Source: a virus
Length of the DNA: 44,260 nucleotides
Reading direction: 5' to 3' (one strand)
Virus record (IMG/VR): IMGVR_UViG_3300035181_000107
Coordinates: 1-44,260 of that record
Shown: positions 34,075 through 37,932 of the stretch, piece by piece
How the letters are laid out: every line of letters starts with the position of its first letter
Numbering within the stretch: position 1 is the stretch's first letter
The notes under the pieces: generated by a model
Database searches by the model: none
Told to the model about the DNA's origin: nothing
What the model saw: the letters and a program-made list of their open reading frames with translations, nothing else
Translations under genes and position numbers: made by a program

Positions 34075-34749
34075 ATGTCAAATGTATCTACCGCGCACAA
34101 TGTTACAGCTTTTGATTCTGCCAAGTCACAAGCTCTCAGTGGGCAACGACTGGTGAAAGCTAAATATAAGACTACTGCCAAGGTTCCAGCTAAGTATCCT
34201 AATATTTGCGCCTCTATCCCATTCTTGCAAGATGCACAGATTGCAGAAAAAATCCCGCAACTAATGGGTTGCATTCGTGCAATGCTTGAGACTGCACAAG
34301 ACGGTGTATTTAAGTCTTTGTACGAGTCTGGTCAGGGAGTGTTGTCTATTGTCACTGATACTGATCTAAGTATCGACGCATGTATCGGGTATCTGGAAGC
34401 AGAATCTACCGGCTCAAGGCTTACTAAAGAGTTTCTCGACGCGTGGTTTATTCGGGAACTACATGAGACAACCTATGCACTGATTGCAGAGAAACTCGGA
34501 TATGGTGGAGTGGATGGAACTATTGAACTTACGGCTGAACAAGATGCTACGATTCTGAAGCATGTATCAGGGTATAAGGATATGTATTCTGCTCTTGCAG
34601 GTGGAAAAACAATGTATCAGCCGCATCAAATTAATGGATTGCGGAAAGTTCTAGGGCACATTGATCTGGATGATACTGGAATGAAACTGGACAAGAAGCT
34701 GGAAAAGATGCTGGAGAGTTCACAGAAGGTTGTCGAGATGATTCTATAA
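34075..34749 (+). CDS. Unknown early protein, 224 aa, stand-alone
   Basis: First sizeable plus-strand gene after the divergent region, with a good site (TAGGAG) nine bases upstream, and then cut off from the rest of the block by 574 non-coding bases. The protein is soluble and largely helical after residue 50 (IPFLQDAQIAEKIPQLMGCI, AMLETAQDGVFKSLYESGQG, KEFLDAWFIRELHETTYALI). The C-terminus has YQPHQINGLRKVLGHIDLDD and a basic amphipathic helix (KLDKKLEKMLESSQKVVEM). No family or catalytic motif is recognised. Gene position suggests immediate-early expression and a possible role at the adjoining repeat region. It shares a loose pattern with the 211-aa protein at 40100. Confidence 0.72.
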   Translation: MSNVSTAHNVTAFDSAKSQALSGQRLVKAKYKTTAKVPAKYPNICASIPFLQDAQIAEKIPQLMGCIRAMLETAQDGVFKSLYESGQGVLSIVTDTDLSIDACIGYLEAESTGSRLTKEFLDAWFIRELHETTYALIAEKLGYGGVDGTIELTAEQDATILKHVSGYKDMYSALAGGKTMYQPHQINGLRKVLGHIDLDDTGMKLDKKLEKMLESSQKVVEMIL

Positions 34750-34836
34750 GAGTGATCCATTAATAGGCATTGATTAGTTTCAGTGTCTATTAGTTTGATT
34801 ATTCATTGGGAGATTATGAATTGGGTTTACAGTCTA

Positions 34837-34861
34837 CTAGACCGCTAGACCGCTAGACTGT
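34837..34861 (+). repeat. Long-range inverted repeat, left arm
   Basis: This 25-base unit begins CTAGACCGCTAGACCG and ends AGACTGT. Its reverse complement recurs at 35197-35221 with 23 of 25 bases matching (the differences are CT versus TC in the centre). Within the left arm the 8-base unit CTAGACCG occurs twice in tandem. TACAGTCTA (34828-34836) and TAGACTGTA (34854-34862) around it form a local 9-bp inverted repeat. Likely a binding site for a dimeric phage protein. Confidence 0.85.
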
Positions 34862-34963
34862 ACAGCCCTCGACCCCCATTCCACCGACCCCCATATGCAC
34901 TGTATGATCTATCTATGTAGATAGGTAGGTAGATAGATAGATAGCAGGGTATGTGTATGAGAG

Positions 34964-34992
34964 TATAGATAGATATAGATAGATATAGATAG
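34964..34992 (+). repeat. Tandem 10-bp repeat (TATAGATAGA)x3
   Basis: Three in-phase copies of TATAGATAGA, the third ending GG, lie inside a wider GATA-rich tract (about 34907-35012). Ten-base spacing puts each unit on the same face of the helix, which suits cooperative protein binding or bending. Slippage during replication is the alternative origin. Confidence 0.85.
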
Positions 34993-35072
34993 GGGTATAG
35001 GTATATAGGTATATTAATTTTAAAGTGGGGTAGTAATACATACATATCACCAAGACTCCTAGAAACTCCTAT

Positions 35073-35118
35073 ATATACCTAGATAGTTCTAGGTATATCA
35101 GATACTATCTAGGTATAT
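35073..35118. repeat. 15-bp inverted repeat with extra direct copy
   Basis: ATATACCTAGATAGT (35073-35087) and ACTATCTAGGTATAT (35104-35118) are perfect inverse copies. A further direct TCTAGGTATAT lies at 35088-35098, exactly 20 bp from the one at 35108-35118. This gives three copies of an 11-base unit, one inverted. In RNA the outer arms would form a hairpin; in DNA the copies resemble iterons or operators. Confidence 0.87.
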
Positions 35119-35160
35119 GGAACTAAGAAGACTATGGAACTAAGCTCTATGGCCCAAGGG

Positions 35161-35189
35161 TTGACAAGGCGGCCATATAGGGATACCCT
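35161..35189 (+). promoter_or_regulatory. Sigma70-type promoter for the small-gene operon
   Basis: TTGACA (35161-35166), a 17-base spacer and TACCCT (35184-35189). The -35 is perfect and the -10 is partial. The inverted repeat TATAGGG/CCCTATA (35176-35182/35186-35192) overlaps the -10, and the 25-base inverted element begins eight bases downstream. Both look like operator positions. It would drive 35324 onward. Confidence 0.65.
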
Positions 35190-35196
35190 ATACCTT

Positions 35197-35221
35197 ACAG
35201 TCTGACGGTCTAGCGGTCTAG
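35197..35221 (-). repeat. Long-range inverted repeat, right arm
   Basis: The inverse copy of 34837-34861, with 23 of 25 bases matching. It reads ACAGTCTGACGGTCTAGCGG on the plus strand, then TCTAG. It covers the likely transcription start of the promoter at 35161-35189, so a protein bound here could repress that promoter and could loop to the left arm 335 bp away. Confidence 0.85.
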
Positions 35222-35323
35222 ATACTCACTTTTTAGAAACTAAGAATTTATTACCTATTATCTCAATAGTCTACTATCTTATATATCTCAATTGTGGGGT
35301 ATATAAACCTAGGAGATTCTATC

Positions 35324-35485
35324 ATGTCAACAATGGCTAAACATATCGGACAATATGCACATAAACTAGCATGGCATAGGAAAGAATGGCTAAGATTAGC
35401 TAAATATCATTTTCAGAATCAGGATGAAACTAACATGTATATTGCATTATTTATACTTGTGTCAAATGATGGAGAATTAAAATGA
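35324..35485 (+). CDS. Small basic protein, 53 aa
   Basis: The start at 35324 was chosen because AGGAG lies nine bases upstream; an earlier in-frame ATG at 35294 lies in the promoter leader. The product is basic and aromatic (HIGQYAHKLAWHRKEWLRLA) and then ends in VSNDGELK. It overlaps the next gene by ATGA. First of a run of tiny early genes of unknown function that are typical of host-takeover regions. Confidence 0.6.
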   Translation: MSTMAKHIGQYAHKLAWHRKEWLRLAKYHFQNQDETNMYIALFILVSNDGELK

Positions 35486-36218: not shown

Positions 36219-36596
36219 ATGTCTAATCAAAAGTTTCGACCGTACTTCACAGCTTCTGAGCTAACTGAAGTAATTAGATGCCTAAAAACTGGATCAGCTA
36301 ATAAAGCCTTGATCCGATACCTAGAAACTTTCGCAATCAAAATCGAACATGGAGTAATGGCAGCTAATATTACTCTGAAACCAACTATTGCAGAAAAACT
36401 AGGGATGGCTGATAGACTTCCCGGAACTAGAACATTGCAAGAGCAAAGAGCTGATGCTTATACTAAATGGTCTCAAGATCCTAGCAAGTGTACATCCCAA
36501 GAGATAGCAAGATGCCTAATGTATCGATATGAGAATGATCTAATGTCGGAATCAGAAGAAAGAGAATATGAACAAAAGATCGAACGCGGTTATTAA
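36219..36596 (+). CDS. Hypothetical protein, 125 aa
   Basis: AGGAG lies ten bases before the start. The protein is charged and helical (YFTASELTEVIRCLKTGSAN, then DAYTKWSQDPSKCTSQEIAR), ending EREYEQKIERGY. The 3' end overlaps a short membrane-protein frame at 36568. No family is recognised; a nucleic-acid-binding role is possible from its charge but not shown. Confidence 0.62.
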   Translation: MSNQKFRPYFTASELTEVIRCLKTGSANKALIRYLETFAIKIEHGVMAANITLKPTIAEKLGMADRLPGTRTLQEQRADAYTKWSQDPSKCTSQEIARCLMYRYENDLMSESEEREYEQKIERGY

Positions 36597-36936: not shown

Positions 36937-37932
36937 ATGAAAATACTCTGCTCAATATCTGGCATTGAATATGAATGCCAACACTTCCCAGCTTATCTAA
37001 CATCTAGAGAAGTATCTCACCCAATATTCCACTTACCCCAGAAGAAACTCTTATCTTATCTAGGTAAATGGGCCGGATCAGAACTAACACCTACTGATTC
37101 TTACCTTCTATTCCTAGCTCTACTCAATTCCTCGGAACTAATCGAATGGAGAGTACCAGCATCAAGAAACGAACATACTGATTCAATAGTTGCCCAGAAC
37201 ATGGAACATCTAGCTCTTATTGTATCCCGGCTTAACGCAGTTACTAATCCTCGTGTAATCTTCCCACATTATGCAGTAGGCCCAGAAACTAAGTTCCTAA
37301 CCAATATCAAACACTGGATAGAGAATTGGAATCAATCTTACCAAGACTTCCAAGATGGATATTCTAAAGAGTATGAATCTCGTAAGTTGATTACCAGAGA
37401 GACTGCACTAGAACGAATGATTAAGAATCCTCATTTGCCTATCTCTGCTTATGCATCTAAGATAGCAGATTGGGCTAGTATTGCAGGGGCTTTCCCAGAG
37501 TATAAAACAATCTCTCCATTCTCTAGCCTTCCAGTCTTAATGACAGACTATTGGAAAGAAGTCATAATCAAATGTACCAAGGAAGAATCTCTATTCCTAG
37601 TCCCACAAGTAGATCTCCAAGATTTGCTAGAGCATTGTGAACAGAACATATCTATCGGCACAATCTATTCTAATGCACTATTCAAAGTCTTGCGCCATGC
37701 ACTAGAAAGACAAAGAAACTTTCTAGGTCTAGGAGATATGGATCTTACGCGCGGCAAGTATCAGATACTCCCAGAAGATTCTACTACTGAAACCGCAAAT
37801 CTTAAAGCAATGGTAGATTCTGCCCCAGATCATGAACCATCCCAGGCAGAGTATCCTACCAAGCTAGCTTATCTAAAAGCTAAGATGCGTTGGCAGCTTT
37901 CTCGCAAGTATGCTAATGGAGTACCAGAATGA
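36937..37932 (+). CDS. Hypothetical protein, 331 aa, next to the helicase
   Basis: A largely helical soluble protein (HLPQKKLLSYLGKWAGSELT, LIVSRLNAVTNPRVIF, FKVLRHALERQRNFLGLGDM) with an acidic Thr/Glu linker at about 285-305 and a basic C-terminal helix (YLKAKMRWQLSRKYANG). No catalytic motif is recognised. The stop overlaps the next gene by ATGA, and that gene abuts the helicase. A role as helicase loader or partner is a context inference. Confidence 0.7.
   Translation: MKILCSISGIEYECQHFPAYLTSREVSHPIFHLPQKKLLSYLGKWAGSELTPTDSYLLFLALLNSSELIEWRVPASRNEHTDSIVAQNMEHLALIVSRLNAVTNPRVIFPHYAVGPETKFLTNIKHWIENWNQSYQDFQDGYSKEYESRKLITRETALERMIKNPHLPISAYASKIADWASIAGAFPEYKTISPFSSLPVLMTDYWKEVIIKCTKEESLFLVPQVDLQDLLEHCEQNISIGTIYSNALFKVLRHALERQRNFLGLGDMDLTRGKYQILPEDSTTETANLKAMVDSAPDHEPSQAEYPTKLAYLKAKMRWQLSRKYANGVPE

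Follow-up and report, generated by a model that had tools for sequence, protein, structure and literature searches.

Genomic Setting of the Repeat-Rich Gap

The window analyzed here is an entire 44,260-nt stretch of viral DNA (IMG/VR record IMGVR_UViG_3300035181_000107). Its first and last 127 bases are identical, a length typical of an assembler k-mer, and the window is therefore a phage genome that closes into a circle of 44,133 bp. For comparison, the Pseudomonas phages PaP2, 119X, and PaMx41 (Fredfastierviridae, Jamesmcgillvirus), the Polaromonas phage Tiera, and the Aeromonas phage P5 were used, with which the window phage displays identities of 33-35% for TerL and 30-33% for DNA polymerase. 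Homologues of TerL, DNA polymerase, primase, and helicase are common to the window and Fredfastierviridae, as is the order of modules, and judged from these genes the phage is a distant relative of that family. No DNA-level relatives of the window were found in the INPHARED phage collection; many relatives closer than the isolates were found in IMG/VR.

In the window, late genes run leftward from approximately 33.5 kb and early genes run rightward from 35.3 kb. A repeat-rich gap, 34750-35323, is located between the gene for a 224-aa protein (p224) and the first early gene. It is non-coding except for spurious-looking ORFs; for a 63-aa ORF that opens with GTG at 35294, the true start is most likely the ATG at 35324. 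No tRNA was found. Family-wide neighbors of the gap are p331, p224, p125, TerS, the Dda-like helicase p563, p211, and p99. The gene for p224 lies directly upstream of the gap, always on the + strand, in 35 of the 37 loci that carry p331, and it is present in 29/30 near-complete relatives. In the early region of one relative (L152:970-1590), a 206-aa ORF composed mostly of tandem Cys/Asn/Asp repeats (NYCNHCDNCDSC...) was observed. The features of the locus are collected in Table 1.

Table 1. Features in and around the gap between p224 and the early genes (positions in the window).
Feature	Position	Strand	Remark
p224, conserved, fold unassigned	34075..34749	+	just upstream of left arm
Left arm, three 8-nt units	34837..34862	-	24/26 complementary to right arm; pair recurs in relatives
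C-rich stretch CCCTCGACCCCCATTCCACCGACCCCCA	34866..34897	+	adjoins left arm
GATA/TATA-rich low-complexity stretch	34907..35015	.	contains 10-bp GATA units
AT-rich core then G-run (TTAATTTTAAAGTGGGG)	35014..35032	+	central element common to relatives
Perfect 15-bp inverted repeat, 16-nt spacer	35073-35087/35104-35118	.	sequence
Early promoter: TTGACA 35161-35166, 17 nt, TACCCT 35184-35189	35161..35189	+	sequence
Right arm, three 8-nt units	35196..35221	+	begins at expected transcription start
First early gene, 53 aa	35324..35485	+	ORF behind promoter; not conserved in relatives
p125, conserved small early protein	36219..36596	+	32/37 loci; 26/31 near-complete genomes
p331, conserved early protein	36937..37932	+	adjoins Dda-like helicase gene; 36/37 loci

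Repeat Architecture

A first-pass annotation had described the gap as a cluster of repeats bracketed by two inverted sites, and all of the elements it listed were found in the sequence. The outer inverted pair is real, with corrected dimensions: the arms are 26 nt long and 333 nt apart, in place of the 25 nt, 23/25 matches, and 335 bp given originally. As also described there, each arm is built of tandem units. Those of the left arm read CTAGACCG CTAGACCG CTAGACTG, while the right arm is the inverse with one unit varied, and exact matches to RGTCTN3RGTCTN3RGTCT occur only in the two arms within the whole window. The best 25-nt inverted pair scores 23, whereas 200 first-order Markov resamplings yielded 20 at most.

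Between the arms, the AT-rich zone is present, as are the three 10-bp GATA units (approximately 34964-34995); TATC/GATA runs occur in several relatives too. Stretches resembling GACCCCC or CACCCCCTCGG adjoin the left arm in most relatives. The direct copy reported 20 bp from the perfect 15-bp inverted repeat corresponds to a part of it, CTAGGTATAT, at 35089 and 35109; this inverted repeat is not conserved as such in relatives. Two copies of TATGGAACTAAG start at 35116 and 35133, and the early promoter is overlapped by two palindromes, TATGGCC/GGCCATA (35148-35154/35171-35177) and ATAGGG/CCCTAT (35177-35182/35186-35191). The repeat density was likewise correctly judged to be far above that of the rest of the genome: the gap ranks highest in 10-mer direct and inverted repeats, with 55 repeat pairs against a genome median of 1. 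Strong tandem repeats denser than the array region were observed elsewhere in the early regions of some relatives, approximately 1.2 kb (G017) and 7.3 kb (G005) downstream of p224, and at L138:3785-4216.

An RNA hairpin between the arms was considered and rejected. No Rfam match was found for the region, and mismatches between the arms on the + strand comprise 31 G.U and 46 A.C pairs, so that G.U is not in excess, which speaks for double-stranded DNA sites over an RNA stem.

Conservation of the Paired Arms

The arms were sought in loci carrying the conserved 331-aa early protein p331, in which the 900 nt after p224 were scored for ungapped inverted pairs 120-650 nt apart. The threshold of 13.5 was set from the null, where not one of 60 stretches of 900 nt taken at random from related genomes reached it (mean 10.0, maximum 12.5). 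An arm pair scoring at least 13.5 was present in 30 of 38 sequences, namely the window, 119X, and 28 IMG/VR loci; several loci come from near-identical phages and the relatives are phylogenetically dependent, so these counts do not represent independent events. Arm pairs were also found in the further near-complete relatives L191, L196, L205, L206, and L207, with quite different or unrelated unit letters. Tiera carries the inverted pair TCGATGTACGGGATGTTCGTTAT / ATAACGAACATTGAGTACATCGA, 427 nt apart, scoring 15.5 against a shuffle maximum of 11. By the ungapped score, some relatives, among them L144, L153, PaMx41, and PaP2, remained within noise; PaMx41 and PaP2 have CAAGGT and ACCTTG repeats at the right places, and the CAAGGT/ACCTTG arrays of 119X and PaMx41 are weak. 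No arm pair was found in either of two gaps tested in P5. In Tiera (L127), a 74-bp tandem duplication was observed beside the left arm of the equivalent gap, at approximately 43.9-44.1 kb of the record.

The order across the family is the 224-aa gene, left arm, AT-rich core, early promoter with right arm, and early genes, and the arms of relatives are separated by 230-500 bp. The letters of the units vary by class (AGTCNNNN, TGGCANNN, ATGATT, and unrelated ones). The period is 8 nt in the GACTNNNN/NNNNAGTC class (9 nt in L131 and 7 nt in L158), 8 nt in the TGGCANNN class, and 6 or 12 nt in the ATGATT class; the arms of L151, L164, and L165 lack a clear tandem unit. Within every genome, the two arms resemble each other more closely than either resembles those of other classes, and in the close pairs L164/L165 and L133/L134 the intervening sequence has diverged but the arms are retained. 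The first-pass annotation had proposed conservation of the 25-nt unit in relatives as a check; its sequence is not conserved, and it is the paired inverted layout that is, in approximately 30 relatives. Between the arms, an AT-rich stretch is followed by GTGGGGG or ACCCC and then by ACCG or GACCG, an arrangement which recurs across classes and in the Pseudomonas isolates; a core of the TTTTAAGTGGGGG or TTTTGATACCCC type is located there in approximately two thirds of relatives and in PaMx41, PaP2, and 119X.

Early Promoter and Right Arm

In the window, 6 nt lie between the -10 hexamer TACCCT and the right arm, which spans approximately +1 to +26 of the predicted transcript. Of 30 sequences, 23 have a perfect TTGACA that ends 1-35 nt before the right arm, against an expectation of 1.4 based on TTGACA word counts, and none has one beside the left arm. 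Where the units are of the TGGCA or ATGATT class, the array extends over the spacer and the -10 element itself; an ATGATT array, for example, contains TTGACA-N17-TATAAT or TATGAT. Since the right array lies on the early promoter, a protein bound there would compete with RNA polymerase. A general promoter scan did not show promoter-like sites to be enriched here, since TACCCT deviates from the consensus, and the case for the promoter rests on its conservation.

Candidate Array-Binding Protein

To identify neighbors that vary together with the arrays, pairwise array similarity was compared with protein divergence in Mantel-type tests, with p331 as the phylogenetic control. The divergence of p125 follows the arrays with a partial r of 0.36 (p 0.001) when p331 is controlled, although Mantel tests under shared ancestry overstate significance and several proteins were tested. 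The signal is concentrated at the N-terminus: with p331 and p224 controlled, the partial r is 0.41 for residues 1-50 (p 0.001), 0.20 for residues 51-85, and 0.04 for residues 86-125. Without the TGGCA clade it amounts to 0.43-0.44. Control windows of p331 and p224 reach an r of at most 0.29, with some p331 windows at 0.2-0.3. For p563, an r of 0.22 (p 0.011) vanished with other controls, and no co-variation with the arrays was detected for p211 and p99. p125 thus offers a lead, being the only neighbor in which the first 50 residues clearly vary with array similarity once phylogeny is controlled, and on this co-variation it is the best candidate for the array-binding protein.

It should be noted that p125 has no Pfam, PHROGs, or PDB sequence match, and no repressor or DNA-binding domain was recognized in it. 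Read by eye, its first 50 residues (KYRPYFT followed by a helix-turn-helix-like alternation) might form strand-helix-helix, which is a guess. p125 is not detectable in L164, L165, L167, and L169, four loci with ATGATT-type or TTAATCG-type arrays, an absence that speaks for the link with the arrays and probably represents two evolutionary events; in G019 and G020, it is encoded 10-12 kb away from p224. No homologue of p125 was found in PaMx41, PaP2, 119X, Tiera, or P5, so that another protein would be needed there.

Two other binders had been suggested at the outset, and neither is favored. The 224-aa protein, encoded beside the terminase genes, is adjacent and conserved, but its divergence does not track the arrays (partial r -0.09) and no DNA-binding fold was recognized in it: its confident AlphaFold model (pLDDT 86.5) has no PDB or BFVD match at E<=0.001. 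The wHTH protein (1654-2097) has a weak MarR/HTH_20 match, and no similar protein was seen at that place, just upstream of the polymerase gene, in relatives. TerS was also rejected as array binder, its partial r being -0.12 to -0.13. For p331 (AlphaFold pLDDT 72), the fold search returned no PDB match, and profile comparison of p331 and p224 with gp54, gp01, and gp55 of PaMx41 gave no significant match.

A Proposed Two-Site Early Operator

On the basis of the anatomy, its conservation, the overlap with the promoter, the paired turnover of arm sequences, and the statistical link with p125, we propose, at about even probability, that the region is a two-site operator which represses early transcription and is probably bridged by a loop. 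The region would then be the master control site of the early operon, with the left arm as the distal and the right arm as the proximal operator half. A phage-encoded DNA-binding protein, most likely p125, would bind cooperatively to the tandem 8-nt units in both inverted arrays. The right array, which covers the early promoter from -10 to approximately +25, would block RNA polymerase, while the left array, 230-500 bp upstream in relatives, would act as an auxiliary site; bridging to the right array would raise local occupancy and loop out the AT-rich core. As p125 is made from the operon it would control, the proposed circuit would be autoregulatory.

The first-pass annotation had offered a control region with looping as one of its two readings. 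The control part gains from arms kept in approximately 30 relatives, from the position of the right arm on the early promoter, and from arms that change together. Looping, however, is inferred, and arm spacing displays no phasing at the 10.5-bp helical repeat (R 0.11); six periods were tried, the p of 0.008 obtained at 11 bp is unconvincing, and helical phasing was rejected. Tandem 8-nt units would not need such phasing, but its absence lends looping no support. The AT-rich/G-run core also counts against the operator reading, since it is strongly kept and would not be needed for a simple operator.

Such a repressor could turn off early transcription in the course of infection, and could keep a genome of the same specificity silent, whether incoming or resident. 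Shea, a PaP2-like phage of Fredfastierviridae, forms turbid plaques and superinfection-resistant colonies with a non-integrated genome, described as pseudolysogeny (PMC13348215). Silencing by the proposed repressor would fit these three properties, and pseudolysogeny may in this way be linked to the region. A further step, tentative and rather unlikely in our estimate, is that p125 and the paired inverted arrays co-evolve throughout the family as a rapidly changing lineage "password" at the early promoter, which would define immunity groups and a non-integrating carrier state; such immunity would then exist in phages thought to be without a lysogeny switch. Should the operator reading hold, environmental podoviruses of a large and hardly studied group carry a dedicated early-promoter switch that is absent from annotation, by analogy present also in the Pseudomonas phages PaP2, 119X, and Shea, and Shea-like pseudolysogeny and superinfection resistance become testable at one promoter. 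Three conserved proteins without known relatives, p125, p224, and p331, are also named.

Alternative Explanations

The main rival, somewhat unlikely in itself, is a replication origin that overlaps the operator and can coexist with it. The inverted arrays, one on each side of an AT-rich unwinding core, would be sites for an initiator, which might be p125 or p331, and transcription from the adjacent promoter may help to open that core. The conservation of the AT-rich core plus G/C-run between the arms in most relatives is consistent with an origin, and a bidirectional origin near the gap would place the leftward late genes and the rightward early genes on the leading strand. Nevertheless, no initiator homologue was recognized, and almost all relatives have the right array positioned on the promoter, a placement for which an origin has no need.

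GC skew, proposed earlier as a check, proved ambiguous as a test of origin. The detrended cumulative skew has an extreme within 1.7 kb of the p224 stop in 8/13 relatives, and in P5 the skew minimum lies beside the equivalent gap. However, where a minimum at the region would be expected for an origin, the minimum of the window lies elsewhere and the extreme at the region is a maximum, the usual sign of a terminus, as it is in 7/12 other near-complete relatives. For the Pseudomonas isolates, the boundary of early and late genes is also where the skew has its maximum, so that gene orientation explains it; the sign at the region is reversed in these isolates, whose minimum is approximately 2.2-2.6 kb from the equivalent gap. 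In the 14-18 kb interval of the window, the detrended cumulative skew minimum was observed near 16.5 kb, inside the leftward late operon and with no change of orientation.

A terminus or packaging site, in which arrays bound by the small terminase flank a cleavage site or terminal repeat, is improbable. The gap does sit between the terminase genes and the early genes, and contig ends cluster 0.8-2.9 kb upstream of TerL in 22/37 loci (IMG/VR L010-L043), which may reflect a physical end near TerS/p224, strain variation, or repeats that are hard to assemble. These ends are, however, scattered across 2 kb, and among 29 near-complete contigs only 2 stop no more than 600 bp beyond p224. PhageTerm indicated terminally redundant ends for Shea (PMC13348215), but the end overlaps found here are only k-mer-sized (114-127 bp), with no longer terminal repeat. 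The records of PaMx41, PaP2, and 119X are opened in the equivalent gap, while those of Neko, TF17, and FBPa48 are opened elsewhere, and record start points of isolates were discarded as uninformative about the terminus; that of Tiera, whose ends were examined with PhageTerm, begins 228 bp before TerS and not between the arms. The divergence of TerS does not follow the arrays, and it is this result, together with the lack of terminal repeats, that makes a packaging site less likely.

The remaining two explanations are both very improbable. Inverted repeats flanking a promoter-bearing segment of 230-480 bp might serve as recombination sites at which the segment flips on and off, but TTGACA stands beside the right arm, pointing right, in 23/30 sequences and beside the left arm in none, so that only one orientation is seen and the fixed promoter orientation disfavors inversion; moreover, no invertase-like protein was present among the scanned neighbors, and the arms are tandem arrays that match imperfectly in many genomes. 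A centromere-like partition site of the parC type, serving a plasmid-like carrier state, would suit the resemblance of tandem repeats flanking a promoter to plasmid parS/parC layouts and the persistence of Shea without integration (PMC13348215), but no ParA/ParM-like partner was recognized among the scanned proteins.

Relation to Known Systems

Of the known systems, the proposed operator resembles OL/OR of lambda and pR of phage 186 with its flanking sites, where an operator at the early promoter is likewise accompanied by a second operator at a distance, and where the operators of one phage match each other but are distinct from those of phages with another specificity. Here, in contrast, tandem units of 6-9 nt form inverted arrays at a distance of 230-500 bp from each other, and no CI-type repressor, lysogeny module, or lysogeny functions were recognized. 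Short-repeat arrays also lie beside the terminal repetition of T7 and at pacL/pacR of SPP1, flanking a few hundred bp near early promoters or terminase genes as in the present gap; in this family, however, the small terminase does not co-vary with the arrays and there is no evidence of a terminal repeat.

With regard to the unit itself, MetJ is a ribbon-helix-helix repressor that acts on 8-bp met boxes. The omega repressor heptads of pSM19035 represent another ribbon-helix-helix repressor on tandem short repeats (PMC9499535). These systems share with the arrays the tandem arrangement, at a promoter, of 7-8-nt units in direct or inverted orientation and the logic of a cooperative array, and p125 read by eye might similarly be a short strand followed by two helices, but p125 has no sequence or profile match to the fold and the unit here differs among genomes. 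PaMx41, PaP2, 119X, and Tiera resemble the window phage in genome plan, in TerL/DNA polymerase sequence (30-35% identity), and in a similar gap with an AT-rich core; unlike in the window phage, p125 was not detected there, and no homology was detected between p224 and the gene that takes its position. If the operator reading is right, arrays with fixed position and inverse match but changing letters would offer a natural series for following joint changes of specificity in a DNA-binding protein and its sites.
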